A stretch of DNA of 64,000 bases. It comes from Bifidobacterium lemurum. GTDB taxonomy: Bacteria > Actinomycetota > Actinomycetes > Actinomycetales > Bifidobacteriaceae. The position numbers and the translations under genes were made by a program. The stretch covers positions 930,001-994,000 of the forward strand of contig NZ_CP062948.1 in the NCBI RefSeq assembly GCF_014898175.1, written 5' to 3'. Every line of letters begins with the position of its first letter. The first letter of the stretch is position 1. Positions 16,688-49,662 of this stretch are shown here, piece after piece. Below the pieces are notes generated by a model. The model saw only the letters and a list, made by a program, of their open reading frames with translations, had not been told where the DNA came from and did not search any database.

Positions 16688-21738
<5,051 letters not shown>

Positions 21739-23614: not shown

Positions 23615-23732
23615 GTGCGGCGGCGTGCTACTCTCCCACACCCTGTCGGGTGCAGTACCATCGCCGTGCTGGGCCTTAGCTTCCGGGTTCGGAATGGGAC
23701 CGGGCGTCTCACCCAGGCCATGGCCGCCGCAA
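23615..23732 (-). rRNA. rrf: 5S ribosomal RNA, copy 2
   Basis: Same sequence as copy 1; recognised by the CCATTCCGAACCCGGAAG core and paired ends. Ends approximate. Confidence 0.93.
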
Positions 23733-23895
23733 ATCTTTCTGTTATGCCCCGCGGTGGGGGTGTGTCGGTGGGTTGGGAACCGGCTAGCGGACGCGTGGTT
23801 TCGTGTTTGATCGCAGTGCGGACCGGAGTCGTGCTCCTTGTCGTCCGGTGGCTTGCCGGGTGATGCTTGCGGCCCCTCCCGGAAGGGAGGGATGG

Positions 23896-28946
<5,051 letters not shown>

Positions 28947-29255
28947 AAAAACCTCGTGGAAAGACATCGAATAGATGACTCTCAAACAATTATTTTCCAA
29001 AAGAAAATGACGAGCACGTCCTATAAGGAAGGACGCCACTCACAAAAACCTCACCACCCATTAACCGCTCCCGCGGACCCGGCAAAACCAGGCGGGCAAT
29101 GAACTGGCAATCATTGACTATAAAGAAGTAGTACAAACACGCTCTTGAGTTCTCAAACCACCACCACACACTCAGTCCGAAGCAATCTCTTGGAGATTTC
29201 CCCTCGCTGACCGGCAGCAAGAGATAAACTTACACGCCCTTGCCCTTTTACGCAA
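28947..29255 (-). promoter_or_regulatory. rRNA operon 2 leader and promoter
   Basis: On the minus strand -35 TTGCGT (29250-29255), 17-base spacer, -10 TAAGTT (29227-29232), then the leader shared with operon 1. Further upstream only short blocks such as CGGCGTGTC remain shared. Confidence 0.7.
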
Positions 29256-32008: not shown

Positions 32009-33835
32009 TTACAGGGCTACGACCACGCCTTCCCAACCGGCCAGCTCGTTGTTGGCGATGGAGACGACGGCGTGGGAGGCGCCACGCGTGGCGATCACGA
32101 CCTGGGATTCATCGATGCCGGAGGCCAGCAGGGCGGCGGATTCGGCGGGCAGGTCGACCGGACGGCCGGAGAGATTCACCATCACCAGCAGACGACGGCC
32201 GTCAAGCTCGCGCACGAAGGCGTACACATGCTCGTCGGACGCATCGACCAGATTCCAATCGCCGGCGGAGACGACGGGATTGTCGTGGCGCAGGGCGATG
32301 AGCTGCTTGTAGAAGCCGTACACGGAATCCGGATCGTCGAATTCGGCGGCCGCGTTGATCGCGGCATGGTTCGGGTTCACGCTGATCCACGGCTCGGTGG
32401 CCGCGTCAGGCGCGGTGAAGCCGGCGTACTTCGACCCATCCCATTGCATCGGAGTGCGGGCGTTGTCACGGCTGATCAGGGCCAAGGAGGCCATCATCGA
32501 TTCCGCGCCCTGCACTTTGGCTTCCTCGACCCGCTGGCGGAATCCGTTGATGGATTCCAGGTCGCGGTACTGGTCGAGGCTGGTGAAGTGGGCGCTGGTC
32601 ATACCCAGCTCCTCGCCCTGATAGACGTACGGAGTGCCGCGATGCATGTGCAGCAGCAAGCCGAGCGCCTTGGCCGAACGCACGCGGGCCTCCTCGGTGG
32701 AGTCGTCACCCCAACGGGACACCACGCGCGGCTGATCATGGTTGCAGAAGAACAAGCTGGCCCAGCCGGCCTTCTTGACCGCCGACTGCTGGTCCGCAAG
32801 ACGTTCGCGAAGGTTCTTCACCTCGAAAGGCACCACATCCCACTTGGAACCGCCGGGCTTCTGGTCCACGCCGACGTGGTCGAACAGGAAGAGCATATCG
32901 AGCTCCTTGTTCGCGGGATCGGTGATGTGCTCGTTGCGGGACGGGGTGACGCCGGGGGCTTCGCCCACGTTCATATAACCCTCGCGCTTCTCGAACACCT
33001 CGCGACGCATTTCGGCGAGGAACTCGTCGACGCGGGGTCCGTCCGAGCAGAAGGGGAACGGAGAGGAATATCCCTCCTCGCCCACCGGATTATCCTCGAT
33101 CAGAGAACCTTCCTCGCCCGGCAGCTTGCCGTTGGCGTCGATGGTCTTGGAGATCTGAGTGATCACGTCCATGCGGAAGCCGTCGATACCGCGATCCATC
33201 CACCAATTCATCATGTCGTACACAGCGCGACGCACCGCGGGGTTCTCCCAATTGAGGTCGGGCTGCTTCTTGGAATACTGGTGCAGGAAATACTCGCCGC
33301 GCTCGGGGCAGTATTCCCACGCAGAACCGCCGAAGTAGGATCCCCACTGGTTCGGTTCCGCGCCGGGGGTGCCGGGCTCGTGGCCGGGCTTGGCCGGACG
33401 CCACCAATACCAGTCGGCGTGCGGGTCGGTCTTGTCTTTGGACGCCTCGAACCACGCGTGCTCGTCGGAGGTGTGGTTCACGACCAGATCCATCACGATC
33501 TTGAGTCCCCGCTTATGCGCCTCGGCGAGCAGCTCGTCCATGTCCTCGAGCGTGCCGAACAGCGGGTCGATGTCCTGATAGTCGGAGATGTCGTAGCCGT
33601 TGTCGTCCTGCGGGGACTTGTACACCGGGGAGAGCCACAGCACGTCCACGCCCAGATCGGCCAGATAGTCGAGACGGGAGGTGATGCCCTTCAGGTCGCC
33701 GAAGCCGTCGCCGTTGCTGTCCTGGAAGGATCGGGGATAGATCTGGTACACCACGGCGTTCGACCACCACGGATTCGGAGTCGCGCCGTTGGTGCGCACG
33801 GCGTCGGGAAGAGTGGGGCGGTTCAAAGAAGTCAT
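32009..33835 (-). CDS. Alpha-glucosidase / oligo-1,6-glucosidase (GH13, subfamily 31-like)
   Basis: A 608-residue cytoplasmic GH13 exo-enzyme. Landmarks: WWSNAVVYQIYPRSFQD, LVVNHTSDEH, nucleophile Asp223 in GFRMDVITQISK, acid/base Glu292 in NVGEAPGV and Asp367 in CNHDQPR. The MDVITQISK segment and the long loop after the active-site helix match oligo-1,6-glucosidases acting on isomaltose-type sugars, though some relatives cleave alpha-1,4 bonds. The ATG follows AAAGGAA. It has its own promoter and terminator and lies at the edge of the lower-GC region. It is less similar to the two subfamily-30-like enzymes in the window than they are to each other. Confidence 0.93.
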   Translation of the reverse strand: MTSLNRPTLPDAVRTNGATPNPWWSNAVVYQIYPRSFQDSNGDGFGDLKGITSRLDYLADLGVDVLWLSPVYKSPQDDNGYDISDYQDIDPLFGTLEDMDELLAEAHKRGLKIVMDLVVNHTSDEHAWFEASKDKTDPHADWYWWRPAKPGHEPGTPGAEPNQWGSYFGGSAWEYCPERGEYFLHQYSKKQPDLNWENPAVRRAVYDMMNWWMDRGIDGFRMDVITQISKTIDANGKLPGEEGSLIEDNPVGEEGYSSPFPFCSDGPRVDEFLAEMRREVFEKREGYMNVGEAPGVTPSRNEHITDPANKELDMLFLFDHVGVDQKPGGSKWDVVPFEVKNLRERLADQQSAVKKAGWASLFFCNHDQPRVVSRWGDDSTEEARVRSAKALGLLLHMHRGTPYVYQGEELGMTSAHFTSLDQYRDLESINGFRQRVEEAKVQGAESMMASLALISRDNARTPMQWDGSKYAGFTAPDAATEPWISVNPNHAAINAAAEFDDPDSVYGFYKQLIALRHDNPVVSAGDWNLVDASDEHVYAFVRELDGRRLLVMVNLSGRPVDLPAESAALLASGIDESQVVIATRGASHAVVSIANNELAGWEGVVVAL

Positions 33836-34348: not shown

Positions 34349-36040
34349 CTACTCGGCAACCAGCCAGACAGCGGTCTGCGGAGGAACGGATTCGACGGAC
34401 TCACCCGGCAACCATTGCGGATCGGACGAGAGCAGCACCGCCATGCCATCCGGCAATGGCTGGCATCGCACGGTGGAGAAGTTTACCAGCACATGCATGC
34501 CCGAGGGCAAAGACCAGCTCAACACATCATCCGCCGGATTCGCTCCATCGACCGCGCTCTCGACCGACCACCAGTCGAATCGAAGATCAACGCCTGCAGC
34601 AACCCACCGTCGACGCAAAGCCAGAGCCGCACGATACAGCTCCAGCATAGAACCGACGGTGCCGCACTGACGTTCCACCGCGTAGGAAGCGAACCAGTCA
34701 GGCTGAGGCAGCCAGCTAGAGCCTGTGTCGCTGAAGCCGAATGTCGGCCCATCGACAGTCCACGGCAGGGGGATTCGGCAGCCGTCGCGGCCTTTGAAAC
34801 GGTGTCCGGATCGCTCCCAATTCGGATCCTGCACCTGGCCCTCCGTCAAATCGAAATCCTCCGGCAGTCCGAGCTCATCACCTTGGTAGATGAACGCGGT
34901 ACCAGGAAGCCCCAGCATCACCAGAGCGGCGGCGCGGGCACGGCGGTCTGCGCTGGCGGGGTCGATGGGAGGATTGGTGCCGTTCGAGGTAACCCATGAC
35001 TCAATGTTCGCTCCAACGGGCAGTCCCAGACGCGATGCGATGCGTGGCACATCGTGGTTGCCAAGCACCCAAGTGGGAGATGTGCCGGCTTCAATCGCAT
35101 AATGGTGCGTTCGTTCGATGGCAGTGCGATACTCATCCGCGTTCCACGAAGCCTTCTGCAAAGAGAAATCGAACACCGCGCCGAGCTCATCGAGCCGTGC
35201 ATATTGGAAGATACGCGGAGTGAAAGGCGTCCAGGACTCTCCGACCGCATATTTGGCCGGCGCATACCGGTCAAATATCTCACGCCAGCCACGGTAGATG
35301 ACATGCACCTCGTCACGGTCCCAGATTGGATCGGAGCCGTCAGCGGACTGAGGCGCCATCAGGGTGGGTTCCGGGCGGTCACGCAGCGGCTCGTCGAGAT
35401 CTTTGGACAAACCATGCGAAACATCGACGCGGAATCCGTCGACTCCTTTATCACACCAAAATTCGAGGATGCGATGGAATTCCTCACGTACCTCGAAGTT
35501 GTCCCAGTTGAGGTCGGGCTGCTCGCGGGCAAACAAGTGCAGATAGTACCAGCCGTCGCCGCAGGGTTCCCATGCAGAACCACCGAAATTGCTCAACCAG
35601 TTGGTGGGAGGCAGTTCGCCGTGTTTGCCACGACCACGACGGAACACGTATCGAGCCGACTCAAGCGACTCAGGCCCGGCCGCAAGCGCGGCGCGGAACC
35701 ACGGATGCTGGTTGGAAGTGTGATTAGGCACAATGTCAATGATGACTTTGATGTCCCGCTGGTGCGCGCCAGCGACCAGTTCGTCGAATTGGCTCATGGT
35801 GCCGAAGCGCGGATCCACCGCACAATAATCGGCCACGTCATAGCCACCGTCCGCCAGCGGCGAGGGATAGAACGGTGAAAGCCAGACGGCATCGACACCG
35901 AGTTGGGCGAGATAATCAAGTTTGTCGACTACGCCTTGGATGTCGCCCTCGCCGTTACTATCACTGTCACGGAACGAACGTGGATAGATCTGGTAGACGA
36001 CGGCGTCCTTCCACCAATCGTCGGGGTGTTTATCGACCAT
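34349..36040 (-). CDS. Alpha-glucosidase (GH13, subfamily 30-like), second locus
   Basis: A 563-residue cytoplasmic exo-alpha-glucosidase. Landmarks: WWKDAVVYQIYPRSFRD, DIVPNHTSNQHPWF, nucleophile Asp206 in GFRVDVSHG, acid/base Glu268 in VGESW and Asp330 in GNHDVPR. It is a paralogue of the enzyme at 6644, but its codons are visibly less GC-rich. It ends an operon after a binding protein and two permeases, so it should act on the imported sugar. The start at 36040 follows GGGAGAA about 10 bases upstream; an in-frame ATG at 36100 lacks one. The 82-base gap after the permease shows no clear promoter. Confidence 0.92.
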   Translation of the reverse strand: MVDKHPDDWWKDAVVYQIYPRSFRDSDSNGEGDIQGVVDKLDYLAQLGVDAVWLSPFYPSPLADGGYDVADYCAVDPRFGTMSQFDELVAGAHQRDIKVIIDIVPNHTSNQHPWFRAALAAGPESLESARYVFRRGRGKHGELPPTNWLSNFGGSAWEPCGDGWYYLHLFAREQPDLNWDNFEVREEFHRILEFWCDKGVDGFRVDVSHGLSKDLDEPLRDRPEPTLMAPQSADGSDPIWDRDEVHVIYRGWREIFDRYAPAKYAVGESWTPFTPRIFQYARLDELGAVFDFSLQKASWNADEYRTAIERTHHYAIEAGTSPTWVLGNHDVPRIASRLGLPVGANIESWVTSNGTNPPIDPASADRRARAAALVMLGLPGTAFIYQGDELGLPEDFDLTEGQVQDPNWERSGHRFKGRDGCRIPLPWTVDGPTFGFSDTGSSWLPQPDWFASYAVERQCGTVGSMLELYRAALALRRRWVAAGVDLRFDWWSVESAVDGANPADDVLSWSLPSGMHVLVNFSTVRCQPLPDGMAVLLSSDPQWLPGESVESVPPQTAVWLVAE

Positions 36041-36122
36041 GATCGCAAAATTCTCCCAGTGCAACAAGATGACCGCCGAACTGATTACGGCGGCCATCAA
36101 ATGGAATTATAAAATTGGACGG

Positions 36123-36947
36123 TCAGCCCTTAACCGAACCAGCCAGCATGGCGCGGATGAAGTAACGCTGCAATATGATGAACAGAATCATAGTAGGAGC
36201 CATAATCAACAGCGCGCCCGCGTTCAGCAACACCACATCTGTCTGATATGTGCCAACAAACGTCTGGAGAGCGCCAGCCATCGTTCGTTTCAGTGGATCG
36301 TTGATCAGCACCACTGCCAGCAGGAACTGGTTCCATGTGGACAGGAAGGTCAGAATCGCCAGTGATGAAAGCGCCGGTAATGCCAAAGGCAACTGAATAC
36401 GGACGAACGTCTGAAAATCACCGGCGCCGTCAATACTGGCTGCTTCCATAAGATCCCGCGGCATCTGCTCGAAATGTTGGCGCATCCATACGACACCAAA
36501 GGACAGATTTAATCCGATAAGCGGCAGAATCAGCGCCCATCGGGTATTGAGAAGCCCAAGTCCGTCAATCTCGTAATACAGCGGCGTCACCAATGTCTCG
36601 AAAGGAATGGTCAGACCGATGATGAAGATTGCGTACAGTACGCCTCGTCCAGGGACGCGCAGCTGTGCCATGGCATATCCCGCCAATGCGGAGCATAGCA
36701 CCACGGTCGGCACCACAGCCAATACGAGGATGCAACTTGACTTAAGCAACGGCAGAATATTCGCCATATTCCACGCGTCGATAAAGTTCTCCCAGTGCGG
36801 AGTCGCGGTGAACTGGATGCCTTCCGGCATGGACCCCTGCGGCTGCAGGGCCGCAGACAGCATCGAGAAGAACGGTAATATCGAAAATGCAACCATGAAT
36901 ACCAACACGATATTACCGGCGGCACGAACAGAGAGCGGTTTTTTCAT
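36123..36947 (-). CDS. ABC sugar importer permease (MalG type), glycan locus
   Basis: A 274-residue permease with six hydrophobic segments, the EAA loop MEAASIDGAGDFQTF and C-terminal RAMLAGSVKG. The ribosome site AAGGAG lies inside the end of the upstream permease gene, two bases separate stop and start, so translation is coupled. Third gene of the binding protein-permease-permease-alpha-glucosidase operon. Confidence 0.92.
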   Translation of the reverse strand: MKKPLSVRAAGNIVLVFMVAFSILPFFSMLSAALQPQGSMPEGIQFTATPHWENFIDAWNMANILPLLKSSCILVLAVVPTVVLCSALAGYAMAQLRVPGRGVLYAIFIIGLTIPFETLVTPLYYEIDGLGLLNTRWALILPLIGLNLSFGVVWMRQHFEQMPRDLMEAASIDGAGDFQTFVRIQLPLALPALSSLAILTFLSTWNQFLLAVVLINDPLKRTMAGALQTFVGTYQTDVVLLNAGALLIMAPTMILFIILQRYFIRAMLAGSVKG

Positions 36948-36949
36948 AG

Positions 36950-37927
36950 TTAGCGCTCCTTCTTTCCCTCAACGAGTCGTTGCAGCGGACCTACCACCAG
37001 CAGCACCAATGCCATCAAAACCACAGCGAGCGCAGAAGCCAAGCCGACGCGGTTTTGCTGGAACGCCAGGCGATACACCATCACGCCAGGCACCATAGTG
37101 GACGTGCCCGGGCCACCTTGCGTAGACATAAACACGACGTCGAAGCTGGCAAGGGCCGCGACGATAGTCATCGTGAAGCACACACCGATCTGACCGCGTA
37201 GTCCAGGAATGGTAATGGAGAACAACTGCCGCCACCATCCCGCACCATCCAACGACGCGGCTTCGTACAACGACTGGTCGATGGCTCCAATACCCGAAAG
37301 CAGCAACACGATGCAGAACCCCAACTGAAGCCAGCATCCGATCACGCCCACCGCAGGCAATGCCGTACTCTGTTCGCCCAGCCATGAGCGGGTGATTCCC
37401 CCTAATCCCAGACCTTGCAGAATCTGGTTCACCGTTCCTGTATCCGCAAGCATCCAAGTCCAAGCCACGCCAGCGGCGGCACCGGGGATGATACGAGGCA
37501 AGAACAGACATACTTGGGCGACGCCTTTGCCGACTTGCGAACGCACATCCTTAATCAGCGCGGCGACTATAAGGCCCAGACACACCGGTATCACAGAGAA
37601 GAAGATAATGAGATAGAACGCATGGCCAATGCTGCCGAGGAGTTCGGAATCCGTGAACACACGAATGTAATTACCTAATCCGATGAAGGTGCTTTCATCG
37701 ATTCCATTCCAGTTGTAGAAGGAATACCACACCGTTTGAATGATTGGCCACAACTCAAAGAGTCCATAAAACAGCAATGCCGGCAAGATGAACACGTAAC
37801 CGCGAATCGCCCGCTTGACCGTCTGGGCTTTACGTCCAGGAACCGCTGCTTGACGCATGGGGGGCCGCCCCTGCCCACGTTCATTATCGTGGGCGAGGGA
37901 CGGCGCGACTGATGTCTTGGACGTCAT
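36950..37927 (-). CDS. ABC sugar importer permease (MalF type), glycan locus
   Basis: A 325-residue permease with a roughly 40-residue charged cytoplasmic N-terminus, then a first helix GYVFILPALLFYGLFELWP and the EAA loop YEAASLDGAGWWRQLF. Only three bases follow the binding-protein stop, and GGAG in that gene's last codons acts as ribosome site. No ATPase gene is in the operon. Confidence 0.92.
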   Translation of the reverse strand: MTSKTSVAPSLAHDNERGQGRPPMRQAAVPGRKAQTVKRAIRGYVFILPALLFYGLFELWPIIQTVWYSFYNWNGIDESTFIGLGNYIRVFTDSELLGSIGHAFYLIIFFSVIPVCLGLIVAALIKDVRSQVGKGVAQVCLFLPRIIPGAAAGVAWTWMLADTGTVNQILQGLGLGGITRSWLGEQSTALPAVGVIGCWLQLGFCIVLLLSGIGAIDQSLYEAASLDGAGWWRQLFSITIPGLRGQIGVCFTMTIVAALASFDVVFMSTQGGPGTSTMVPGVMVYRLAFQQNRVGLASALAVVLMALVLLVVGPLQRLVEGKKER

Positions 37928-37930
37928 CCG

Positions 37931-39250
37931 TTACTCTCCAAGCTCATCTTCATACTTCGCTTGGATGGTACTGCCGAAATCGGAGGGCTGCAACGAACCA
38001 TCAATCAGCTCCTGAACGGCCGGAATAAGAGCATTCGCCTGAATGCCTGCGGTCGAATTGTAGATATGCGTGGCGGTATTGCCACCTGCGATGAACTCGG
38101 AATAAGTCTCCAGCACGGATTGCATCACGGGATCATCACTGGTGGCTTCGCCTTCTCCCACGGGAGCATAACCATTCTCGATCATAATCTGGCGAGCCTC
38201 GTCGCTCATCAGGAAATTGATGAATGCCGCAGCGGCGTTCTTATGTTCGGCGTTGGTTGGGATGCCCCACGGAGTCGCGCCATCGAGCGCACCGCCTGAG
38301 CCCTCGCCCTCTTCGAGCGGAGGAACAGCGATGAAGCCCGCGGTATCGCCCATGGCTTCAGAGATGGACGAGGTATACCAATTACCTGCCGGGAAGAACA
38401 GGCCCTCGCCTTTGGTGAACCTGGACAGCGCGGTGGACGAATCGATGGCATTCACACCGTCGGGGAAATAGCCAGCTGCCGCCCAATCGGCGATATATTG
38501 CGCGGCCGTTGCTGTGCCGTCAGTATCGATGGTGGCACCGTCACGCTGCAAAGTGAACGCGCGAATGGCGTCGACGCCGTTCTCATTGATCAACAGACCG
38601 TCAAGAAGATGGATGACGCCCGCGTCCTTGGCATCAGCCATCATCGGCAGAACACCGGCTTCTTTAGCAATCGCCATATCTTCTTCAAGCTCCTCGATGG
38701 TCTTCGGAGCCTCGGTGATACCCAGCTCGCCCGCCAGTTCCTTGTTCCAGAAAATGCCGGTCATCGTGAATCCATCAGGGATGGCATAGCGGTCGCCCTC
38801 CCCCAGTTCCTGATCGTCATTCATGCTGTAGGTACTGGTTTGGCTCTCCGGAATGTCCCACCCGTAGGCTTCGGCGTATTCCTCAAGACTGATTACATGG
38901 CCACCACGAGCGGCAGAGCCGACATCGGTGATACGCGCGATGTCAGGAGTTTCAGAAGCGGAAATCACACGGGGCCCGTTCTGCGCGCTCACGTTGTCGG
39001 GATCATATGTGGCCGTGATGGTGATATTGGGGTATTTCGCTTCAAACGCCTCAATTAAGGCATCGTCCTTCGCCTTCAGGCCTGCGCCATCCCAAAGTTT
39101 GAGCTCGATTTGTTCATCGCCAAGATCGGTGCTGACAGCCTCATTCTGCGCGCCGTCATTCGAATTTGACGAACCTGGGCCACAAGCGGCAAGCCCAGAA
39201 GCCATGGCTACGATGACAAAGGCGGCAGCCATTCTGTTGAGATTTCGCAT
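37931..39250 (-). CDS. Substrate-binding lipoprotein, glycan locus
   Basis: A 439-residue extracellular binding lipoprotein of the family-1 sugar type. A signal peptide MRNLNRMAAAFVIVAMASG ends in lipobox LAAC, followed by a Ser/Asn/Asp-rich linker. The body has IELKLWDGAG, EAKYPNITITATYDPDNVSA and FFPAGNWYTSSI blocks. AGAGG lies 6 bases before the ATG at 39250. It is first in a four-gene operon ending with an alpha-glucosidase, and diverges from the alpha-mannosidase operon across a region with two matching operators. The ligand is unknown; an alpha-glucoside, possibly mannose- or fructose-containing, is inferred. Confidence 0.9.
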   Translation of the reverse strand: MRNLNRMAAAFVIVAMASGLAACGPGSSNSNDGAQNEAVSTDLGDEQIELKLWDGAGLKAKDDALIEAFEAKYPNITITATYDPDNVSAQNGPRVISASETPDIARITDVGSAARGGHVISLEEYAEAYGWDIPESQTSTYSMNDDQELGEGDRYAIPDGFTMTGIFWNKELAGELGITEAPKTIEELEEDMAIAKEAGVLPMMADAKDAGVIHLLDGLLINENGVDAIRAFTLQRDGATIDTDGTATAAQYIADWAAAGYFPDGVNAIDSSTALSRFTKGEGLFFPAGNWYTSSISEAMGDTAGFIAVPPLEEGEGSGGALDGATPWGIPTNAEHKNAAAAFINFLMSDEARQIMIENGYAPVGEGEATSDDPVMQSVLETYSEFIAGGNTATHIYNSTAGIQANALIPAVQELIDGSLQPSDFGSTIQAKYEDELGE

Positions 39251-39328
39251 GTTAACCTCTTTCCTTTCCGCACTGCTGTGCGATGTCTTCTTTGACAAAC
39301 ACCTATGAGTGCCGGGATTGACACATTA

Positions 39329-39504
39329 CATAAGCGTTTATGCAGCCGAGAATATCACGCCAGCAGATACTTGTCAAACCCGTTCGACACGCAGAAAAAA
39401 CGGCTATTTTGCAGCATTATGCCGGATTCTCGCAAAACCGGCACTCAAGATATCGGCACACCTACTATACTGCTAGATATTACCCCGATACCAAAGCGTT
39501 TAGC
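39329..39504. promoter_or_regulatory. Divergent control region with operators of LacI regulator 3
   Basis: CATAAGCGTTTATG (39329-39342, nearly a perfect palindrome) and CCAAAGCGTTTAGC (39491-39504) share the core AAGCGTTTA and differ from the CGTTGTCA sites of the maltodextrin regulon. One lies before each divergent operon. A TATACT -10-like box is at about 39464-39469. Confidence 0.6.
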
Positions 39505-39536
39505 ATATTGGAATGTCCCACAACAAAGGAGTTGAG

Positions 39537-42500
39537 ATGATCCTCAAACCCGAACAGCAGGTAGAACGCTGCAAGCGCGTCATGAAGGAACGCATAGAAC
39601 CGCGCATCCACCCAGTGCTTGAGCGCTGTTCCGTGAAAGCCTTCCGCAATCCCGGAGAACCGGAACCCGCCGACGATGTACTCGCTCGTGCCCAGCACGG
39701 CGCAATCCCCTTCATCGACGTCGCACAAAACGAGCCCTGGGGAACATCATGGGGCACCACATGGTTCAAAGTCACAGGGAACGCGCATCTTGACGAAGCG
39801 CAAGGCAGAGCCATCGAATTGGTGGCGCGGTTAGGCTACCTCGACGGTCCTGTCGGAGGTCAAGTGGAGGGTCTGGTATATCGCCCCGACGGCACGGTGA
39901 TTAAAGGACTGCACCCCCGCAATTTCACAATCCCTCTTGTCGACGCCGAAGGAAGGCGCGATTCGATAGTCGATGATTCCGGCAACTTCACCCTCTATAT
40001 TGAGGGAGCCTACAATCCCATGATTCCAGCTTTCCCGCAAACGAATTGGGGGAATGGTCCCACAGAGTGCGCTGATGTCAGATATGAATTCCGCGGCGTG
40101 GACGTCTGCGCCTACGAACATGAGCTGGCGGAATACCACATGGACCTCGACGCCATCAGCATGGCTTTGGAGCAACTCGACAAAGAGGGCGCCCGATATT
40201 GGCATCTCGCCAAAGCGCTGCAGCGTTCACTCAACATTTTTGACATGCGAGATCTCACAACGGTCAGACCCGCGCGGCAAGCTCTCACAGAGGTTCTCCG
40301 CGCTCCCGCCAACCATTCGTCCATTCAGCTGGCCGCCATCGGGCACGCGCATATCGATTCCGCTTGGTTGTGGCCGGTGCGAGAAACCAAGCGCAAAGTC
40401 GCCCGTACTGTGTCGAATGCGCTGCTTCTTATGGACAACGACCCTGACTACATCCATGCGATGAGTTCGGCACAACAATACGAGTGGCTTGAAGAAGCCC
40501 ATCCCGACTTGTTCGAACGCATGAAGCATCGCATTCAAGAAGGACGTTTCGTGCCCGTCGGCGCGATGTGGGTGGAGTCCGACGGTATGATTCCCACAGG
40601 GGAATCACTGATTCGACAAATCTCATTCGGGAAACGGTACTACCGAGAGAAACTCAACTGCGACACAGACATCATCTGGCTGCCGGACAGCTTCGGGTAT
40701 ACCGGCGCGTTCCCTCAAATTGCCCGTCGCGCAGGATATCGATATTTCCTGACACAGAAGATATCATGGAACGACACCACACGACTCCCCCACCACTCCT
40801 TTATGTGGGAAGGAATCGACGGATCGCGTATCTTCACGCACTTTCCTCCGGCTGACACCTATGGGGCGTTCGTCACCGCCCAAGAACTGGACTATGCCCA
40901 ACGAAACTTCAAGGACAAAGATCTTTCTTCGCGCGGAGCCTTGCTCTTCGGATATGGAGACGGAGGCGGCGGAGTGCCTCGCGAAATGGCCGGGAGGGTG
41001 CGTCGATACCGCGATTTCGAAGGTCTGCCGCGCACTGAATATATGTCCCCAAAAGCCTTCTTCGATACCGCATACCAAGAAATGCGCGATGAGGCAGGCG
41101 ACGAATTCCCCGTATGGAAAGGCGAACTGTACCTTGAACTGCATCGCGCCACGCTAACCGCGCAGCAGGCGATGAAACGCGGCTGCCGACTTACGGAGTC
41201 CATGCTTCGCGCCGCGGAGTATCTATGCGCCATGGCCGCTTTATACCAGGATGATTATACTTATCCCGTAGATGAGTTCACATCGATTTGGAAGCAGCTG
41301 CTACTCAACCAGTTCCATGACATTCTTCCCGGCTCAGGCATTGCGTGGCTGTACAGGCAGGCACGGGACGAATACTCACGCGACCTGCGAAGGTTGCACC
41401 GACTATGTGCCGACGCAGCCATAGCGCTAAGCAAGGCCTTGCCGCAGGCTAAGATCCTGACGCGAGGACGCATATCCCCCTTCTCAGCCCAGAAAGAAGA
41501 TGACCTTGCATGGCGAACCGTTCCCACAACCGTCACGACTCCCACCACACCAGTCACGATGCGTCCTCATGACGAGGGGTACGAAATCGACAATGGATTG
41601 CTTCGCGCCATCATCAGTTCCGATGGCGCGGTCACTTCCCTGTATGACATCGCAGCTGATCGCGAAATCATCCCGCAAGATACACGCATGGGACAGTACG
41701 AACTACTGAAGGACGAGCCCAGCGTATTCGACGCTTGGGATATCGAGCGCGACGCGTTTATCACAGCCAAACCCGTATCCGGAGGCCGACTGATATCGGC
41801 GAGGATCGACGGAACAGGCGCTGCCACTGTCCGATCTGAAATCCACGTGGAAGCAACCACCATCATCACGGATATCACATTACGTCCTGGATCGAGGCAG
41901 ATGGACTTTCATACACATGTGGACTGGCATACACAGGAGCAATTCCTCAAAGTGGACATTCCCATCGCCATTGAAACCACACGAGCAATCTATGACTGCC
42001 AATACGGTCTCACCGAACGACCAATCCAAAAGAACACCGTGCGCGACGAAGCAATGTTCGAAAGCTGCAGTCATCGGTTTATCCACATCACGGACCATCA
42101 ATATGCAACTGGGGTGGTCAATGCGTCCACTTATGGATCAGACGTGTCACCCATTCACGGCTCCCAACCCGGCACTATGGTCCGGCTTTCTCTGCTCAGC
42201 GGGTCCTGCGCGCCAGATCCGCAAGCGGACCAAGGCGAGCATGATTTCGATTGGGCTGTTGTCCCGTCTTATAGCTTGGAGGCAACAATCGCATCCGCAT
42301 ACACGTTAAATGCGCCCGTCATCGAGAATCTTCCAGAGATGTCCTCTCCTGTACGCATCTCATGCGCCGAAGGAACTGCGATCATCGACTGGATCAAACT
42401 GGCCGATGACGGATCTGGCGACCTCATCGTCCGCTTGTACGAAGCCGTCGGTGCAACAGTCCGCGCCACCTTGCAAACATACGGGCCTCTCGCCGATGCG

Positions 42501-42653
42501 GTCGTATCGGAAACCAATGAGCTGGAAGAGGGCATCCGATATACAGACGAACCTACAGCTTTGCAAGAGGACGGCATCCACGCGGATGGCGCACCACTCA
42601 CACTGAGACCGTTCCAGCTGGCAACGCTTCGCATCACTCCGACATCAAGATAG
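39537..42653 (+). CDS. Alpha-mannosidase (GH38)
   Basis: A large cytoplasmic alpha-mannosidase of 1038 residues. The metal-site motif GHAHIDSAWLW places His272 and Asp274; the nucleophile Asp384 is in WLPDSFGYTGAFPQI; GYGDGGGG and ELYLELHRATLTAQQAMKRG follow. The C-terminal beta domains run to the end. Length matches full bacterial GH38 enzymes. AAAGGAG lies 5 bases before the ATG at 39537; an ATG at 39513 is not supported. No signal peptide, so the substrate must be imported. It leads an operon with LacI regulator 3 and a GH172 enzyme, and diverges from an importer operon with the same operator type. Confidence 0.94.
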   Translation: MILKPEQQVERCKRVMKERIEPRIHPVLERCSVKAFRNPGEPEPADDVLARAQHGAIPFIDVAQNEPWGTSWGTTWFKVTGNAHLDEAQGRAIELVARLGYLDGPVGGQVEGLVYRPDGTVIKGLHPRNFTIPLVDAEGRRDSIVDDSGNFTLYIEGAYNPMIPAFPQTNWGNGPTECADVRYEFRGVDVCAYEHELAEYHMDLDAISMALEQLDKEGARYWHLAKALQRSLNIFDMRDLTTVRPARQALTEVLRAPANHSSIQLAAIGHAHIDSAWLWPVRETKRKVARTVSNALLLMDNDPDYIHAMSSAQQYEWLEEAHPDLFERMKHRIQEGRFVPVGAMWVESDGMIPTGESLIRQISFGKRYYREKLNCDTDIIWLPDSFGYTGAFPQIARRAGYRYFLTQKISWNDTTRLPHHSFMWEGIDGSRIFTHFPPADTYGAFVTAQELDYAQRNFKDKDLSSRGALLFGYGDGGGGVPREMAGRVRRYRDFEGLPRTEYMSPKAFFDTAYQEMRDEAGDEFPVWKGELYLELHRATLTAQQAMKRGCRLTESMLRAAEYLCAMAALYQDDYTYPVDEFTSIWKQLLLNQFHDILPGSGIAWLYRQARDEYSRDLRRLHRLCADAAIALSKALPQAKILTRGRISPFSAQKEDDLAWRTVPTTVTTPTTPVTMRPHDEGYEIDNGLLRAIISSDGAVTSLYDIAADREIIPQDTRMGQYELLKDEPSVFDAWDIERDAFITAKPVSGGRLISARIDGTGAATVRSEIHVEATTIITDITLRPGSRQMDFHTHVDWHTQEQFLKVDIPIAIETTRAIYDCQYGLTERPIQKNTVRDEAMFESCSHRFIHITDHQYATGVVNASTYGSDVSPIHGSQPGTMVRLSLLSGSCAPDPQADQGEHDFDWAVVPSYSLEATIASAYTLNAPVIENLPEMSSPVRISCAEGTAIIDWIKLADDGSGDLIVRLYEAVGATVRATLQTYGPLADAVVSETNELEEGIRYTDEPTALQEDGIHADGAPLTLRPFQLATLRITPTSR

Positions 42654-42666
42654 TCACCAAGCCCCA

Positions 42667-42703
42667 GCGCTCATCGGCGGTGTTGCCGCGCCCCGATGAG
42701 CGC
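42667..42703 (+). terminator. Hairpin between alpha-mannosidase and LacI regulator 3
   Basis: GCGCTCATCGG (42667-42677) pairs perfectly with CCGATGAGCGC (42693-42703). No T run follows, so it may be a partial terminator or an RNA-stabilising hairpin that lowers expression of the downstream genes. Confidence 0.6.
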
Positions 42704-42788
42704 ACACTTGCTAACCTATTGGAAGGAGACAGACACGTGTCCAGCCGCCGTAACGATGCGGACGGATGATGACATAAGGGAAAGAACG

Positions 42789-43802
42789 ATGAAAAAAGCG
42801 ACGATAGAGGATGTGGCGCTGAAGGCAGGCGTTTCGACGTTCACTGTTTCAAGGGCGCTGCGCGATAAAGAGCATGTCGCCCCGGCTACGAAACAGCGTG
42901 TCATCGAAGCCGCGAAAGCGCTCAACTACACCATATCGCGGTCCGCCACCGCACTTGCCAGTGGATGCACACGGCGAATCGCGCTGCTAGTATGCGAATC
43001 CATAGCGGCTTGGTTCAATGGAGAGATTCAGGAGGGCATCTACGATGTGCTCAGCCAAAACAAATACGATCTTCTCATTTATCGAGCCAGCAACGAAACC
43101 GAACGGCGGCACTTCTTTGACAATCTGCCGGCCGACCGCAATGCGGACGCTTTAATCGTATCGTTCTCACTCACCGATGACGAGCAGCATGCCGTCTCAT
43201 CAATGGGCATGCCAATCGTGACTATTAACGCGCTCAACCAGGATTACTGCCACGGATCGGTACGTATAGACGATATGCAGGCCGAGGGAGACGCGATTCG
43301 ATATCTTTCCGCGCTTGGCCATGCCAAATTTTGTTTTGTGGACAGGCCTTCACATCCATGGGGCCAGGATAACCGTATCGACGGCTATCGAAACACTGTC
43401 TTCTCTCTCGGCCTTACCGATTGCGGCACCTTTGAACTCACGAGCGACCCGGATCGTCCCGCAAAACACGCAACCGCGCAAATCCTCGCACTGCCACAAA
43501 GACCAACCGCCATCTGCGGCTGGTCGGATGACTGCGCCTTCGCCATCGTTCATGAACTCCGACGTGTTGGCATCCGGGTGCCGGATGACATGTCGGTTAT
43601 CGGCTTTGATGCGATCCCATCTTATCGTCTCGCTGGGCTGACATCAGTAATGCAACCGGCACACGACATCGGACGCATTGCCGCACAGAAAATACTGGAT
43701 CTGCTCGAAGGACGCCAGCTAGAGACTCCCCACACCATCGTTCCCACTCAACTCATACCCGGTGACACCACCGGTCCTGCCCCGCAACGCGACGCCAACT
43801 GA
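42789..43802 (+). CDS. LacI-family regulator 3 (glycan locus)
   Basis: A 337-residue LacI regulator: helix-turn-helix TIEDVALKAGVSTFTVSRAL, hinge SRSATALASG, then a sugar-binding domain with DDMSVIGFDAIPSYRLAGLT. It shares overall layout with the two maltodextrin regulators (ADRNADALIV against VRRNADAVIV) but is clearly more distant, in line with its different operators (core AAGCGTTTA). The ATG at 42789 follows AGGGAAAG. A strong Shine-Dalgarno 60 bases upstream (GGAAGGAG, 42721-42728) is not used by this frame. Likely controls both arms of the divergent locus. Confidence 0.9.
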   Translation: MKKATIEDVALKAGVSTFTVSRALRDKEHVAPATKQRVIEAAKALNYTISRSATALASGCTRRIALLVCESIAAWFNGEIQEGIYDVLSQNKYDLLIYRASNETERRHFFDNLPADRNADALIVSFSLTDDEQHAVSSMGMPIVTINALNQDYCHGSVRIDDMQAEGDAIRYLSALGHAKFCFVDRPSHPWGQDNRIDGYRNTVFSLGLTDCGTFELTSDPDRPAKHATAQILALPQRPTAICGWSDDCAFAIVHELRRVGIRVPDDMSVIGFDAIPSYRLAGLTSVMQPAHDIGRIAAQKILDLLEGRQLETPHTIVPTQLIPGDTTGPAPQRDAN

Positions 43803-43863
43803 AGAGACTGATCATATGACAGAGAGCTCTCATATGGACCATCAATCAGCAACGAGGAGAACC

Positions 43864-44961
43864 ATGCATAATATCCTTGACCTCACCAAAACCCAGCCTT
43901 TTGTCTCCCGTGCCATCAACGCAGAAAATCCCCATGGTAAACCGGGACAGGCAGCGATGACTCCCAGCATTCTAGGACCAAGTCGTAAAGGCTCACCCGC
44001 TTTGCGTAACATCGCCCCCGGAACCACAGTGACGCTTGCGGATATCTCAGGATCAGGAGAAATAAGCCATATATGGTTCACCCTGGACGAGCGAACCACC
44101 GATGCCGACTGTTTCGTTCTACGAGATCTCGTATTACGAATGTATTGGGATGACGAAACCGAACCAAGCGTCGAATGTCCAATCGGAGACTTCTTCTGCT
44201 GTGGATTTGGACGCGCCACCACCATAACCTCAATCCCAGTGGTGTCATTGCCCACACGCGGTCTCAACAGCTACTGGCCGATGCCATTTCGTTCGCACGC
44301 ACGCATCACAGTGGAGAATCAGCATCCTAACCCTATTCCCGACCTGTTCTACCAAATTGACTACAGGCTATATGATGAGCCGCTAGCGGAGAACACGACG
44401 ATGTTTCATGCGCAATGGCGGAGACAGAACCCAACACAGCCTGCAGAAGATTATGTGATATTGGACGGCGTCCATGGCAGCGGACATTACGCGGGCACAT
44501 ACCTAGCCCTGACCACGCTGGAACGCCACTGGTGGGGGGAGGGAGAAGTCAAATTCTACATCGACGAAGACACGAATTACCCCACTATCTGCAGCACCGG
44601 AACCGAGGATTATTTCGGAGGAGCCTGGAGTTTCGCCCGCCAACAAGATGGGCACACCGAAGAACAAACTTTCAGCACATCTTACCTAGGGTACCCTTAC
44701 TATTCACGCCATGACGAGCTCATCCACAACAATTATCACAACGATGACATACCGCCACAAAGAGGGCTCTACCGCTGGCATATACCCGATCCAATCGTTT
44801 TCCGAACCAATTTGAAAGTAACATTGCAACAAATTGGCTCAGCATACCGTGGTGCGTTCGAGCGCAGCGACGATGTTGCGACTGTTGCATATTGGTATCA
44901 GCAAGAGCCTCATTCGGCCTTCCCGAGTCTTGACGCCGCCGAGCAACGCTGGCCGCGCTGA
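43864..44961 (+). CDS. GH172 (DUF2961) glycoside hydrolase
   Basis: A 365-residue protein of the DUF2961 family, now GH172. Characterised members include a Bifidobacterium dentium alpha-D-fructofuranosidase acting on difructose dianhydride I and alpha-D-arabinofuranosidases. Family features: SRAINAENPHGKPGQAAM at the start, DISGSGEISHIWFTL, CPIGDFFCCGFG and ICSTGTEDYFGGAWSF. GH172 acidic catalytic residues are expected in the last block (Glu in GTEDYFGG). GAGGAG before the ATG at 43864 decides the start; in-frame ATGs at 43816 and 43834 lack such a site. No signal peptide, so it is intracellular. Which furanoside it cleaves here cannot be told. Confidence 0.88.
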   Translation: MHNILDLTKTQPFVSRAINAENPHGKPGQAAMTPSILGPSRKGSPALRNIAPGTTVTLADISGSGEISHIWFTLDERTTDADCFVLRDLVLRMYWDDETEPSVECPIGDFFCCGFGRATTITSIPVVSLPTRGLNSYWPMPFRSHARITVENQHPNPIPDLFYQIDYRLYDEPLAENTTMFHAQWRRQNPTQPAEDYVILDGVHGSGHYAGTYLALTTLERHWWGEGEVKFYIDEDTNYPTICSTGTEDYFGGAWSFARQQDGHTEEQTFSTSYLGYPYYSRHDELIHNNYHNDDIPPQRGLYRWHIPDPIVFRTNLKVTLQQIGSAYRGAFERSDDVATVAYWYQQEPHSAFPSLDAAEQRWPR

Positions 44962-45063: not shown

Positions 45064-45155
45064 ATTATGGACCGCCTCTGGCGGGCTCAATGCTACCTTC
45101 GCTCGGCTATCGCCTCGCTCAGGCGGTGCCTATGAACAGTCCACAGGACTGTTCA
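45064..45155. repeat. Dispersed palindromic element, diverged copy
   Basis: It has the same order of parts as 8684-8800: ACCGCCTCTGGCGG, CTCAATGCTACCTTCGCT, a CTCAGGCGG block and a terminal hairpin TGAACAGTCC-ACA-GGACTGTTCA (45133-45155), which ends at the stop codon of the permease. Confidence 0.65.
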
Positions 45156-46028
45156 CTTCACGGCACCGCGCATCACGCCACCAACGACCCACTTTTGGGC
45201 GAAGATGTAGACGACTAGGACGGGGGCCATGGCCATGAGGTAGCTGGAGAACGCCATCGGGTAGTTGGTGGCGAACTGCGAGCTGAACACGTACTGGGCC
45301 AGCGGGATCGTCTGGTTGCTCTGGTCGGTGAGCACGATCAACGGCAGCAGGAAGTCGTTCCACGCCCACAGGCAGGTGGTGATCGCGATGGTGGCGTTGA
45401 TCGGTCCCATCAGCGGGAAGATGATCTGCCAGAAGATGCGCCAGGTGCTGGCGCCGTCCATGCGGGCGGCCTCCTCCAGGGAGACGGGGATCGACTTGAT
45501 GAAGCCGGTGGCGATGAACAGGTTCGTGCCGAGGCCGAGGATCGTGTACAGCACGATCAGGCCGAGCTGGTTGTCCAGATGCAGCGTGCCCATCTGCTTG
45601 GCGATCGGCAGCATCACCACGGAGAACGGCACGAACATGGCCAGGATGAAGAAGTAGTACAGGAAGCGGAAGAACCGCTTGTCCTGGTTGCGCGCCACGG
45701 CGTAGGCCACGAAGGTGTTGGTGATCAGGGTGAGCACCACCGCGGCGACCGTGATGATCGCGGAGTTGAGCGCCGCCTTGGGGTAGTTCACCTTGTCGGA
45801 GGCGTCGAGGAAGTTATGCCATTCCCAGCTGGTCGGCAGGGCGAAGGTGCCGGCCTCGGCCGGGGTTTTCAGCGCCGTGACGATGGTGAAGTACAGCGGG
45901 ATCAGAATGGTCAGGGACAGGACGGCGACGACGGCGGTGAGCCACCAGTTGATGTTGCGGTCCTTGCGGAATTTGAGGTTCTTCGGCTCCGTGGCGGAGA
46001 CGACGGAGGTGTTGGTTGCGCTGGTCAT
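45153..46028 (-). CDS. ABC sugar importer permease (MalG type), raffinose-type locus
   Basis: A 291-residue permease with a charged N-terminus, six hydrophobic helices, the EAA loop EEAARMDGASTWRIF and C-terminal GGVMRGAVK. It is 18 bases after the MalF-type subunit and last in a three-gene operon led by a binding protein. The neighbouring ROK regulator and GH36 alpha-galactosidase point to raffinose or melibiose-type alpha-galactosides. Confidence 0.91.
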   Translation of the reverse strand: MTSATNTSVVSATEPKNLKFRKDRNINWWLTAVVAVLSLTILIPLYFTIVTALKTPAEAGTFALPTSWEWHNFLDASDKVNYPKAALNSAIITVAAVVLTLITNTFVAYAVARNQDKRFFRFLYYFFILAMFVPFSVVMLPIAKQMGTLHLDNQLGLIVLYTILGLGTNLFIATGFIKSIPVSLEEAARMDGASTWRIFWQIIFPLMGPINATIAITTCLWAWNDFLLPLIVLTDQSNQTIPLAQYVFSSQFATNYPMAFSSYLMAMAPVLVVYIFAQKWVVGGVMRGAVK

Positions 46029-46046
46029 AATGCTTACCCTCTACTC

Positions 46047-46952
46047 TCAGATCTTTTCCTGGCTGCTGGAGATCTTCAGCTGGACGATGGCGATCACGGC
46101 CAGCACGATGAAGAACAGCACGGCGTTCGCGGTCTGGTAGGCGTACTCGCCGCCGGTCAGGCCGCCCTTCCAAATGAGATAGGTCACCGTTTCGGTGGAG
46201 GAGTTCGGACCGCCTTCGGTCAACGCCACGACCTGGTCGAAGGTGTTGAGCGCGTTCTTGAGGCTGATCACCAGATTGATGGTGAAGAAGGGGCCGATCA
46301 GCGGGAAGGTGATCTTCCAGAACTTCTGCCAGGCGTTCACGCCGTCGATCGCGGCGGCCTCGTAGATCTCCTCGTCGATGGTCTGCAGACCGGCGAGGTA
46401 AAGCAGCACCGAATAAGCGACGGACTGCCACACGGCGAGGAACACGATCGGAATCCACGCGAGCTGCTCGTTGGTGAGCAGCGAGCTGGACAGCCACTCG
46501 ATGCCGAGCGCCTTGCCGAGTTCGGGCAGCGGGTTCATGAAGATGTATTTGAACACGTAGCCGATCACCAGCACCGACAGGGTGTAGGGGATGAAGAAGA
46601 TCGCGCGGAAGCCGTTCTTGAACGCGATCTTGCCGTTGAGCGCGACCGCGAGGAACATGGCGATGACGTTCACCAGAATGGTGATCACGATGGCGATCGC
46701 GAAGGTGAACAGGTAGGCGTGACCCACACGGTTGTCCTGGAACAGGGCGAAGTAGTTCTTCAATCCGATGAACTTGAAGTCGCCGTAGCCCTGGGAGTTC
46801 GTGAACGAGTAGAACACGCCCTGCAGGAACGGCACGTACAGGAAGATCGCGAAGATGATCGCCGCGGGCACGGCCATCCAATAGTAGGCGCGGTCGACCT
46901 TGCGGGTGGAGAAGGTGGACACCTTCTTCTTGGCGGATTTGGCGTTGCTCAT
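46047..46952 (-). CDS. ABC sugar importer permease (MalF type), raffinose-type locus
   Basis: A 301-residue permease: basic N-terminus (SAKKKVSTFSTRKVDR), first helix YYWMAVPAAIIFAIFLYVP, EAA loop YEAAAIDGVNAWQKF. Two adjacent ATGs (46955 and 46952) follow GAGGAG; the second has better spacing. It begins about 20 bases after the binding-protein stop. Confidence 0.91.
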   Translation of the reverse strand: MSNAKSAKKKVSTFSTRKVDRAYYWMAVPAAIIFAIFLYVPFLQGVFYSFTNSQGYGDFKFIGLKNYFALFQDNRVGHAYLFTFAIAIVITILVNVIAMFLAVALNGKIAFKNGFRAIFFIPYTLSVLVIGYVFKYIFMNPLPELGKALGIEWLSSSLLTNEQLAWIPIVFLAVWQSVAYSVLLYLAGLQTIDEEIYEAAAIDGVNAWQKFWKITFPLIGPFFTINLVISLKNALNTFDQVVALTEGGPNSSTETVTYLIWKGGLTGGEYAYQTANAVLFFIVLAVIAIVQLKISSSQEKI

Positions 46953-46975
46953 CATGTCTCCTCTTATCTAGTCGC

Positions 46976-48268
46976 TCACTCGAAGGTCCTGGCCTGGACC
47001 TTGTCCCATTCGCTCTGCATCTGGTTCAGGAAGCGGTCGGTGTCGCCGCTGGTCACCATCGTCTGCAGGTAGCCGCCGATGTTGATGGACGAGGGGATGT
47101 AATGGTCGCAGAAGTCGGCCAGACGGTTCTCCTCGAAGAAGGAACGCACGGTCTCCAGCGCCTCGTTGCCGAAGTAGGTCTCTTTAAGCGGGGTGATGGC
47201 GGATTGCGCGTCGGCGTAGGCGTTGAGCTGCTCCTCCTGCATAAGGAATTCGACGAGCTTCATCGCCTCCTCGGGATACTTGGTGTCGGCGCCGATGGTG
47301 AGCATCACGTCGTCGCCCGCGGTGAGGATCTGCTCGTCCGGATCGTCGGTGGCGGGCAGCTGCGCGAAGCCCAGTTCGATGTCGGGGTTGATGAGCAGGA
47401 TCTGCGGGATGGCGTAGGTGCCGAGCGGGATGATCGCGGCCTCGCCGTTGGCGAAGTTCTGCGTGCCCTGCTGGTAGGTGACGCCCGTGTCCGCGGTGGA
47501 GTAGGTGAACAGTTCGGCTTCCTTCTCCACGGCCTCCGTCCAAATCTCCTGGAAGGTGGTCTCTCCGGTTTTCAGGCCCGTGTACTCGCTTTCGGGAACC
47601 AGCGTGCCGGCCAGCGAGGCGAGCGGCGCCTGCGTGGTCCACGCGTCGGCGACCGTGCCCTGCAGCGGATTGATGCCGGCCTCCTGGAAGGTCTCCAGCA
47701 TGGCGGTGAACTCGCTCCACGTGGTCGGCGGGTTCTCGGGATCGAGCCCCACCTCGCGCCACAGCGCCTTGTTGTAGATGTATCCGGAGGCGTTGCCGGC
47801 GAACGGCAGGCCGTACAGACGCTTCTTGGACTGGTCGGTGGTCTGCACGAGGTTCTTGGCGATCTCGACCATGCCGGGGTTGAGGTCGTCGACGATCTCC
47901 TCGTCGGTGAAGTCATAGAACACGCCGGAGGCGGCGAAGTAGCCGAAGCTGATGTCGCCGTTGAAGGTGATCACGTCCGGGATGCGGTTCTTGACGAAGC
48001 GGGTGCGCAGGTCGGTCTGCGCGTTGGCGGAGTTGTTGATGGTGACTTTGATGGTCGGGTTTTCCGCCTCGAACTCCTCGATCATCGTTTTGAACTGGTC
48101 GGCGGCCTCGGACTTGAACTGGAAGAAATCCAGCGTCACCGTGCCCGCGGTGCTCGAACCACACCCGGCCAGGCCGACGCCCACGGCGACGGTGCAGGCC
48201 ACGGCCGCGGTGGTGCGCAGCGCGGCATGCAGCCGGCGGCTCTTGCGAGTGGGGGAATCGTCTTTCAT
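46976..48268 (-). CDS. Substrate-binding lipoprotein, raffinose-type locus
   Basis: A 430-residue binding lipoprotein. An extended basic N-terminus ([17 protein letters not shown]) leads a signal peptide ending in lipobox LAGC. The mature part, starting [22 protein letters not shown] and with [19 protein letters not shown], resembles bifidobacterial binding proteins for raffinose-family and isomalto-oligosaccharides. AAAGGAG precedes the ATG. It leads the importer operon and diverges from the ROK regulator. Confidence 0.89.
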
Positions 48269-48453: not shown

Positions 48454-49662
48454 ATGGCCGACGAAAACGCGATTCCGCAATGGTTTTCCGGTTCCGAACA
48501 TACGCATAAGGTGGCGGCCACCATCGCGAAATACGGCCCCATCGCCCGCACGACGCTCGCCCAGATGCTGGGATTGTCGCAGGGCGCCCTGTCTCGCATC
48601 ACCAGCGATCTCATCTACGCCGGCGTGATCGAGGAACTGCCCGCCACCGCCGGCGGCCCCAAAGGCCGGCTACCGGAGGGATTCATGCCGAAGGAAAGCA
48701 CGGACCGACGCGGACGCCCGCAGACTTTGCTGGCTTTGTGCGCGAACGCCCGCACCTTCGTGGGGTTGAAGGTGCACGGGCATTACGCCGTGGCCGCGGC
48801 GGTCAACGCGCATGGCGAGGTGGTGTCGGGACGCCATGAGGAACCGTTCGAGAACCAGTCGCCGGCCTGTGTGACCGAGACGATCGCCAAACTGGTCGCC
48901 GGATGCGCCGCCGATGTCGTCGCGGCCGGACTCCCCTCGCCGCTGGCGGTGGGCGTCGCGGTCGGCGGCCATGTGCGGGAGGATTCGGTGGTGACTTTCG
49001 CGCCGTTCCTGCATTGGACCGAGGATATCGACCTCGGAGCGATGGTCCATGCCGCCACCGGACTGCCATGCGGGGTGTTCAACGACATCGATTCGCTGCT
49101 GGTGGATGCCTGCTGGTTCGGGCCCGGCGTGGGCTACGAGATGTTCGCCGTGGTGACCGTGGGCGTGGGCGTGGGATATTCGCTGGCCGTGCGTGGCGAG
49201 CCGGTCCGGTATCCCGATAAAAGCTACGGGCTGGTCGGGCATATCCTCGTGGATCCCGAGGGCCCCCGCTGCATCTCCGGACATGTGGGATGCTCGCAGT
49301 GCCTGACCGATGATTCCATCGCGGAACAGTATTCGACGATTATCGGACGGGCCGCCACATTCGAGGATTTCGCCGATGATGTGCGTCGCGGCGTGCCGCA
49401 GGCCTCGCAACTGCTCAACCGCACCTGCTTCCGCTTGGGCACGCTGATCGCCACCGTGGCGAATGTGGCGATGCCGGGCATGATAATGGTCGCCGGGGAA
49501 TCGGCGTTCCTCGCCACGATCGGCGTCGACTCGATTCGAGACGGCATCAGCCGGCATCGTCACAATCAGGCGGCACCGGTGAAATTCGTCATCGCCGACC
49601 ATGACTGGCAGCTGTGGGCCAAAGCCGCCGCCAGCCGCGTCATCGTCACCTATATCGGCTGA
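48454..49662 (+). CDS. ROK-family transcriptional regulator
   Basis: A 402-residue regulator: N-terminal winged helix (ARTTLAQMLGLSQGALSRITSDLI) joined to a ROK sugar-kinase-like domain. The ROK zinc site is partly visible as CISGHVGCSQCLTDDSI, and VGVAVGGHVREDSVV and FNDIDSLLVDACWFG match the ROK fold. The usual kinase catalytic Asp position reads FNDIDS, typical of ROK proteins, but the DNA-binding domain marks it as a regulator. It diverges from the importer operon and lies beside a convergent alpha-galactosidase, so it probably responds to alpha-galactosides. Confidence 0.92.
   Translation: MADENAIPQWFSGSEHTHKVAATIAKYGPIARTTLAQMLGLSQGALSRITSDLIYAGVIEELPATAGGPKGRLPEGFMPKESTDRRGRPQTLLALCANARTFVGLKVHGHYAVAAAVNAHGEVVSGRHEEPFENQSPACVTETIAKLVAGCAADVVAAGLPSPLAVGVAVGGHVREDSVVTFAPFLHWTEDIDLGAMVHAATGLPCGVFNDIDSLLVDACWFGPGVGYEMFAVVTVGVGVGYSLAVRGEPVRYPDKSYGLVGHILVDPEGPRCISGHVGCSQCLTDDSIAEQYSTIIGRAATFEDFADDVRRGVPQASQLLNRTCFRLGTLIATVANVAMPGMIMVAGESAFLATIGVDSIRDGISRHRHNQAAPVKFVIADHDWQLWAKAAASRVIVTYIG

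Follow-up and report, generated by a model that had tools for sequence, protein, structure and literature searches.

The locus described here lies in a genome that consists of a single contig of 2,965,103 bases, within a window of 64 kb (the whole stretch of DNA that was analyzed). It comprises seven genes, all of them with open reading frames, which form two divergent operons: one encodes a GH13 enzyme, two ABC permeases, and a sugar-binding lipoprotein, and the other a GH38 enzyme, a LacI-family regulator, and a GH172 enzyme (Table 1). Including its neighbors, the order along the window is GH13, GH13, permease, permease, binding protein, GH38, LacI, GH172, raffinose-type transporter, ROK regulator, and GH36-like enzyme. 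A Pfam scan of ten window proteins returned the families that an earlier, sequence-only reading had named (GH13, GH38, GH172, LacI, and an importer). The GH13 protein matches PF00128 with 342.6 bits and the GH172 protein matches DUF2961 with 306.4 bits, both permeases fall in BPD_transp_1 and the binding protein in SBP_bac_1, the GH38 protein contains four recognized domains, and the regulator belongs to the LacI family. By direct reading, the likely starts of the locus genes fall within the longest open reading frames, and these positions define a divergent promoter region at 39251-39536, in agreement with the earlier statement that the operons diverge from 39.25/39.54 kb. The same reading had noted that the enzymes lack signal peptides; none is seen by eye, and its logic of import followed by cleavage is supported.

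Table 1. Features of the locus and of its conserved neighbors, in window coordinates
Feature	Position	Strand	Basis and remarks
Second GH13, positioned as Bbr_1855 and closing the melezitose-type part	32009..33835	-	Pfam; 73-81% in L113-L116 and L120
GH13 alpha-glucosidase	34349..36100, likely start 36040	-	Pfam; in the place of Bbr_1857; database copy 563 aa
ABC permease, MalG type	36123..36947	-	Pfam; 91% in L111/L112
ABC permease, MalF type	36950..37927	-	Pfam; 80% in L111/L112
Sugar-binding lipoprotein	37931..39250, ATG at 39250	-	Pfam; lipobox LAAC; database copy 439 aa
Candidate LacI operator, motif 1 (ACATAAGCGTTTATGC)	39328..39343	.	Directly behind the -10 of the putative binding-protein promoter
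Second conserved palindrome, motif 2 (TGTCAAACCCGTTCGACA)	39372..39389	.	Overlaps the -35 hexamer of that putative promoter
Weaker motif-1-like site, 4 mismatches	39490..39505	.	5' of GH38; by eye
GH38 alpha-mannosidase	39513..42653, likely start 39537	+	Pfam, tree
LacI-family regulator	42696..43802, likely start 42789	+	Pfam, tree
GH172 (DUF2961), Ser-type	43762..44961, start 43816 or 43864	+	Pfam, phmmer alignment
Raffinose-type ABC transporter (two permeases and binding protein), conserved neighbor	45153..48268	-	Pfam on the binding protein alone
ROK regulator beside the raffinose-type transporter	48454..49662	+	Pfam
GH36-like alpha-galactosidase, conserved neighbor	49977..52250	-	Family named by appearance

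Comparison with the melezitose cluster and conservation in Bifidobacterium

The growth of Bifidobacterium breve UCC2003 on melezitose goes with Bbr_1855-1860, which encode a GH13 enzyme (Bbr_1855), a PF05691 protein (Bbr_1856), a further GH13 enzyme (Bbr_1857), two permeases (Bbr_1858 and Bbr_1859), and a binding protein (Bbr_1860), as given in Table 1 of PMC6045613. This cluster is controlled by the LacI-type repressors MelR1 and MelR2, and the raffinose cluster of B. breve is activated by RafR (PMC4908950; see also PMC4746261). As judged from families, gene order, and relatives, the window matches this cluster in the succession of two GH13 genes (one of them at the cluster end), two permease genes, and a binding-protein gene, and in its LacI gene with conserved candidate operators, the presumed counterpart of LacI control in B. 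breve. Both also have a raffinose-type cluster alongside: the title of a B. breve study reportedly places the raffinose cluster next to the melezitose cluster. Unlike B. breve, the window lacks PF05691 between its GH13 genes and adds GH38 and GH172, which flank LacI. PF05691 was found neither in the window, where a remnant was also sought in vain, nor elsewhere in its genome, while 20 of 112 genus genomes have matches. The locus had been called undescribed, a label that does not hold for the importer, GH13, and LacI genes, since these are arranged as in the melezitose cluster already in print.

To place the locus within the genus, we surveyed 112 Bifidobacterium genomes, that of the window included. 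Relatives of the binding protein at 48% or better occur, with the window counted, at 12 places in 10 of these genomes; the 11 places outside the window, in nine other genomes, range from 48 to 76%, and the next best match drops to 28%. Genomes G054 (locus L111) and G073 (L112) carry all seven genes in an identical order, which argues against a chance arrangement and answers the earlier suggestion to search other genomes for the gene set: the order is not confined to one strain. Because G054 and G073 are near-identical, they count as one further lineage; the locus is real and is conserved in two lineages. Neither L111 nor L112 has an IlvA or raffinose-type match within the 19.5 kb examined; the seven-gene unit thus stayed together while its chromosomal place differs.

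Genes of the relatives were located by protein-guided searches, longest-ORF calling being unreliable in these GC-rich loci. The island of the relatives runs IlvA, GH13, PF05691, GH13, two permeases, binding protein, LacI, raffinose-type transporter, and ROK; it is whole in L115, and L113 (from G043) has GH172 and further genes besides. The same IlvA gene ends the island in, for example, L113, L115, L116, and L120, the last of which shows neither a binding protein nor a LacI relative. PF05691 is found in six of the ten loci L111-L120 (L113, L114, L115, L117, L119, and L120). Among the ten genomes with a binding-protein relative at 48% or better, five carry GH172 in this kind of locus (those of the window, G054, G073, G043, and G071), with an extra binding protein standing before GH172 in G043 and G071, and three carry GH38 there (window, G054, and G073). 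GH38 adjoins GH172 in 3 of the 112 genomes. The core of importer and GH13 occurs with GH172 but without GH38 in L113 and L114, and without either in L115-L118; GH38 and GH172 therefore behave as separable additions.

The GH13 enzyme encoded at 34349..36100 shares 65-73% identity with the GH13 proteins of L113-L120 and 59% with those of L111/L112. Since the binding protein reaches 76% in G054 and G073, where GH13 stands at merely 59%, the GH13 gene may have been exchanged. Among solved structures, 8yif and 8yie (459 bits) come closest to this GH13 and are named alpha-glucosidase; we sought its specificity through them in vain, no description of that enzyme having been found among the papers that contain either code. 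The structure of the binding protein likewise gave no lead to the substrate, its best solved relative scoring 58 bits. We consider it probable, at roughly 0.6, that the locus is a widened melezitose-type (alpha-glucosyl-fructoside) utilization locus; the possibly exchanged GH13, the distance of the binding protein from any solved relative, and the missing PF05691 gene count against this reading.

Candidate operators in the divergent promoter region

Motif 1, with a consensus of about GCATAAGCGCTTATGC or GCATAAGCGCTTAGCA, occurs once in the window when up to three mismatches are allowed. It is present in the promoter region of L111-L118, exactly the eight of the ten loci L111-L120 whose LacI relative is full-length; L116 also has a remote second match. 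It was not found in L119, where the LacI relative is partial (222 aa matched), or in L120, which has none. A set of 11 further Bifidobacterium loci, 221,631 bases in total, contains it once; because the variants of the motif were picked after the sites had been seen, these counts are biased towards it. Pairs of motif-1 sites are spaced 158-161 bases apart in L111 (one member weak), L113, L117, and L118, and 176-190 in L114, and a single promoter site passed in L115 and L116. Among six aligned promoters, every one has motif 1 and five have motif 2, which is decayed in G051. Of the promoter-like sites, the best has a -35 hexamer that overlaps motif 2, although sites of this kind, at 11 found versus 7.0 expected (sd 3.0), are not clearly above chance. 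In the LacI tree, where long branches elsewhere draw warnings, the window protein falls in a ten-member clade (100/98) together with the LacIs of the other melezitose-type loci and that of G086, which adjoins a separate ABC-GH172 operon. The sequence-only reading had named unshared operators as a point that would speak against it; the candidate operators are shared with relatives, motif 1 being conserved in L111-L118. The divergent operons are probably co-regulated.

The GH172 and GH38 enzymes

The window GH172 retains the catalytic Glu pair (E270 and E291 of aFFase1) as well as W267 and D292 in a phmmer alignment (numbering from PMC8605356). At the -1 site, Gly299 of the fructofuranosidase aFFase1 admits fructose and Asn253 of the arabinofuranosidase ExoMA1 blocks it (PMC10509167); the window enzyme has Ser at this position. 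Lys147 of the aFFase1 +1 site is replaced by Pro, and Glu85 lies outside the aligned part. In overall similarity, ExoMA1 is the nearest solved GH172 (270.8 bits), ahead of aFFase1 (150 bits). No description of a characterized Ser-type GH172 was found in the parts of the literature available. The type is nonetheless common: among the best 80 named loci of at least 589 confirmed ones, a set that near kin of the window may lie outside, 62 are Ser-type (53 by pattern and nine of the 12 that the pattern missed, two of these nine holding a Gly type as well), and the others have Cys, Gly, or Ala. Each of the 30 Bifidobacterium loci examined, the window included, is Ser-type; these are the better matches, and the aFFase1-like proteins (about 43% in part) that occur in G028, G035, and G049 fall outside them.

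In the GH172 tree, from which 19 of 56 chosen rows missed by a motif filter had been dropped, the bifidobacterial enzymes of this group nest among those of Lachnospiraceae. As to whether GH172 entered the melezitose-type locus once or twice, the free tree separates the window type from that of G043/G071, although a single clade is not rejected (p-AU 0.157). As a raw count, 12 of those 80 named loci (nine Ser-type and three Gly-type) have GH32 close to GH172 within the roughly 4 to 21 kb of DNA covered per locus, and with eight proteins it is the commonest glycosidase family among the 166 of 258 neighbors scanned, a set that leaves out all of L075, L078-L091, and about a dozen others. This company favors an alpha-fructofuranoside as the substrate of the window enzyme; its closer overall similarity to ExoMA1 and the lack of GH32 in the window's own locus speak against it.

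Two described systems resemble the GH172 part of the locus. The difructose dianhydride I operon of B. dentium (BBDE_2040, aFFase1) also combines LacI, an ABC importer, and an intracellular GH172; it differs in having GH32 and in that the available part of its description does not list GH13 or GH38 (PMC8605356), and neither Gly299 nor Lys147 of aFFase1 is kept in the window enzyme. The D-arabinan locus of Microbacterium arabinogalactanolyticum shares an ABC importer and an intracellular GH172 (ExoMA1), but neither GH183 nor GH116 is among the ten window proteins scanned, and Asn253 is replaced by Ser. A search of the window's genome for the GH183 (DUF4185) endo-arabinanase gave no match, the control genomes being silent too. 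No arrangement of GH172 with GH38 in Bifidobacterium was found in the literature searched, which excluded most subscription journals, and tblastn over about 4 to 21 kb of DNA per locus placed GH38 near none of the 80 best named GH172 relatives.

The GH38 protein is closest among solved structures to 7uft (1297 bits), 7ufr, 7ufs, and 7ufu, which we take to be high-mannose N-glycan enzymes of B. longum. In the GH38 tree, it forms with its two counterparts a clade (100/100) on a long branch, sister to a lineage of five genomes, four of which have GH85. The window's genome has one GH38 match and none for GH125 or GH85; across the genus, GH125 matches occur in 29 of 112 genomes (28 over the cut-off) and GH85 matches in eight. 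Judged by sequence, the enzyme is kin to N-glycan-type mannosidases, but stands without GH125 and GH85 partners in this genome; from the B. longum enzymes it also differs in its own long branch and other gene company.

Possible substrates and rival explanations

For substrates and regulation, we infer the following scheme. The lipoprotein and the two permeases would import a small sucrose-like oligosaccharide, from which the GH13 enzymes, judged by their family, would remove alpha-glucose inside the cell. LacI would repress both operons through sites in the divergent region until the arrival of sugar releases it. The accessory enzymes GH172, most likely removing alpha-D-fructofuranosyl units, and GH38, removing alpha-mannose from imported oligosaccharides, would widen the range of sugars fed by one import system, whereas clusters of the usual type have a PF05691 enzyme instead. 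The locus thus looks like a variant of the known melezitose cluster, with two further intracellular glycosidases under apparently the same switch. In a more specific version, which we offer tentatively and regard as unlikely, the substrates are sucrose-like oligosaccharides with a fructofuranose bearing alpha-glucose or alpha-mannose (for example, glucosylated difructose anhydrides or mannosylfructose), handled by a single importer and a single repressor with an enzyme suited to each bond, the GH172 being of the Ser-type class common in Lachnospiraceae and Bifidobacterium. The locus as a whole ties GH172, a little-known family, to what looks like a characterized bifidobacterial sugar regulon, and draws attention to a large Ser-type group, frequent in ABC-transporter operons of gut Firmicutes, whose substrate could readily be tested. 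It also illustrates a way in which the sugar loci of bifidobacteria may be widened, with enzymes joining an importer and a switch that stay the same.

The sequence-only reading had proposed a single imported oligosaccharide with alpha-glucose, alpha-mannose, and an alpha-furanoside, taken apart by all three enzymes. The seven-gene order kept in two lineages at different chromosomal places, and a motif-1 site at the putative importer promoter with a weaker one before GH38, fit this proposal. However, L115-L118 have the core but neither GH38 nor GH172, and in L113 and L114 GH172 is the sole addition of the two; we consider a three-bond sugar improbable. We know of no natural glycan that combines the three linkages.

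The other rivals, D-arabinan salvage and leftover N-glycan use, also rank below a widened melezitose-type locus. Lipoarabinomannan contains alpha-mannose, and salvage of lipoarabinomannan-like pieces of actinobacterial cell wall that bear D-arabinofuranose and mannose would suit a GH172 nearer to ExoMA1 than to aFFase1; the mycobacterial-wall idea raised earlier is weakened because the window enzyme has Ser in place of the Asn said to block fructose, and GH32 near the GH172 relatives and the melezitose-type core point away from it as well, making it quite improbable. That GH38 is a stranded N-glycan enzyme, merely parked in the locus, agrees with its position as sister to the mostly GH85-bearing lineage, but is hard to reconcile with a genome that has a single GH38 match and neither GH125 nor GH85. 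We rate this, too, as improbable, given that the enzyme has a long branch and that the second lineage keeps it at the same spot.

GH172 surroundings in related loci

In two Bifidobacterium melezitose-type loci that carry GH172 without GH38 (L113:9155-13244 and L114:5398-10755), the first binding protein is retained and GH172 is accompanied by a paralogous second one, with 47-49% identity to the window's binding protein; GH172 may therefore have its own receptor there, with permeases in common. Elsewhere in the genus, a gene for a LacI related to the window's adjoins an ABC-GH172 operon that is separate and lacks the melezitose-type core (L129:5916-11415, genome G086). In Diplocloster, a Ser-type GH172 (Ser at the Gly/Asn specificity position) is immediately preceded by two GH32 genes (L050:6919-11095 and L055:6916-11050), an arrangement that is clearly a fructoside context.

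GH13 divergence

The GH13 genes of two near-identical Bifidobacterium loci with the window's seven-gene order (L111:13962-15572 and L112:13965-15575) share just 59% identity with the window's GH13, compared to 63-91% for the remaining six genes. Judging from these sequence identities, GH13 could possibly have been exchanged.

Other features of the window

The tandem rRNA operons have a spacing of 7208 bases.

Further features, in window coordinates
Feature	Position	Strand	Content	Basis
rRNA operon	16407-21739	minus	5S, 23S, 16S	Rfam
rRNA operon	23615-28947	minus	5S, 23S, 16S	Rfam
Further alpha-glucoside-like cluster	4743-13416		two LacI-type regulators, GH13, two permeases, binding protein	ORF reading only
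GH13 of this cluster	6515-8416			ORF reading only
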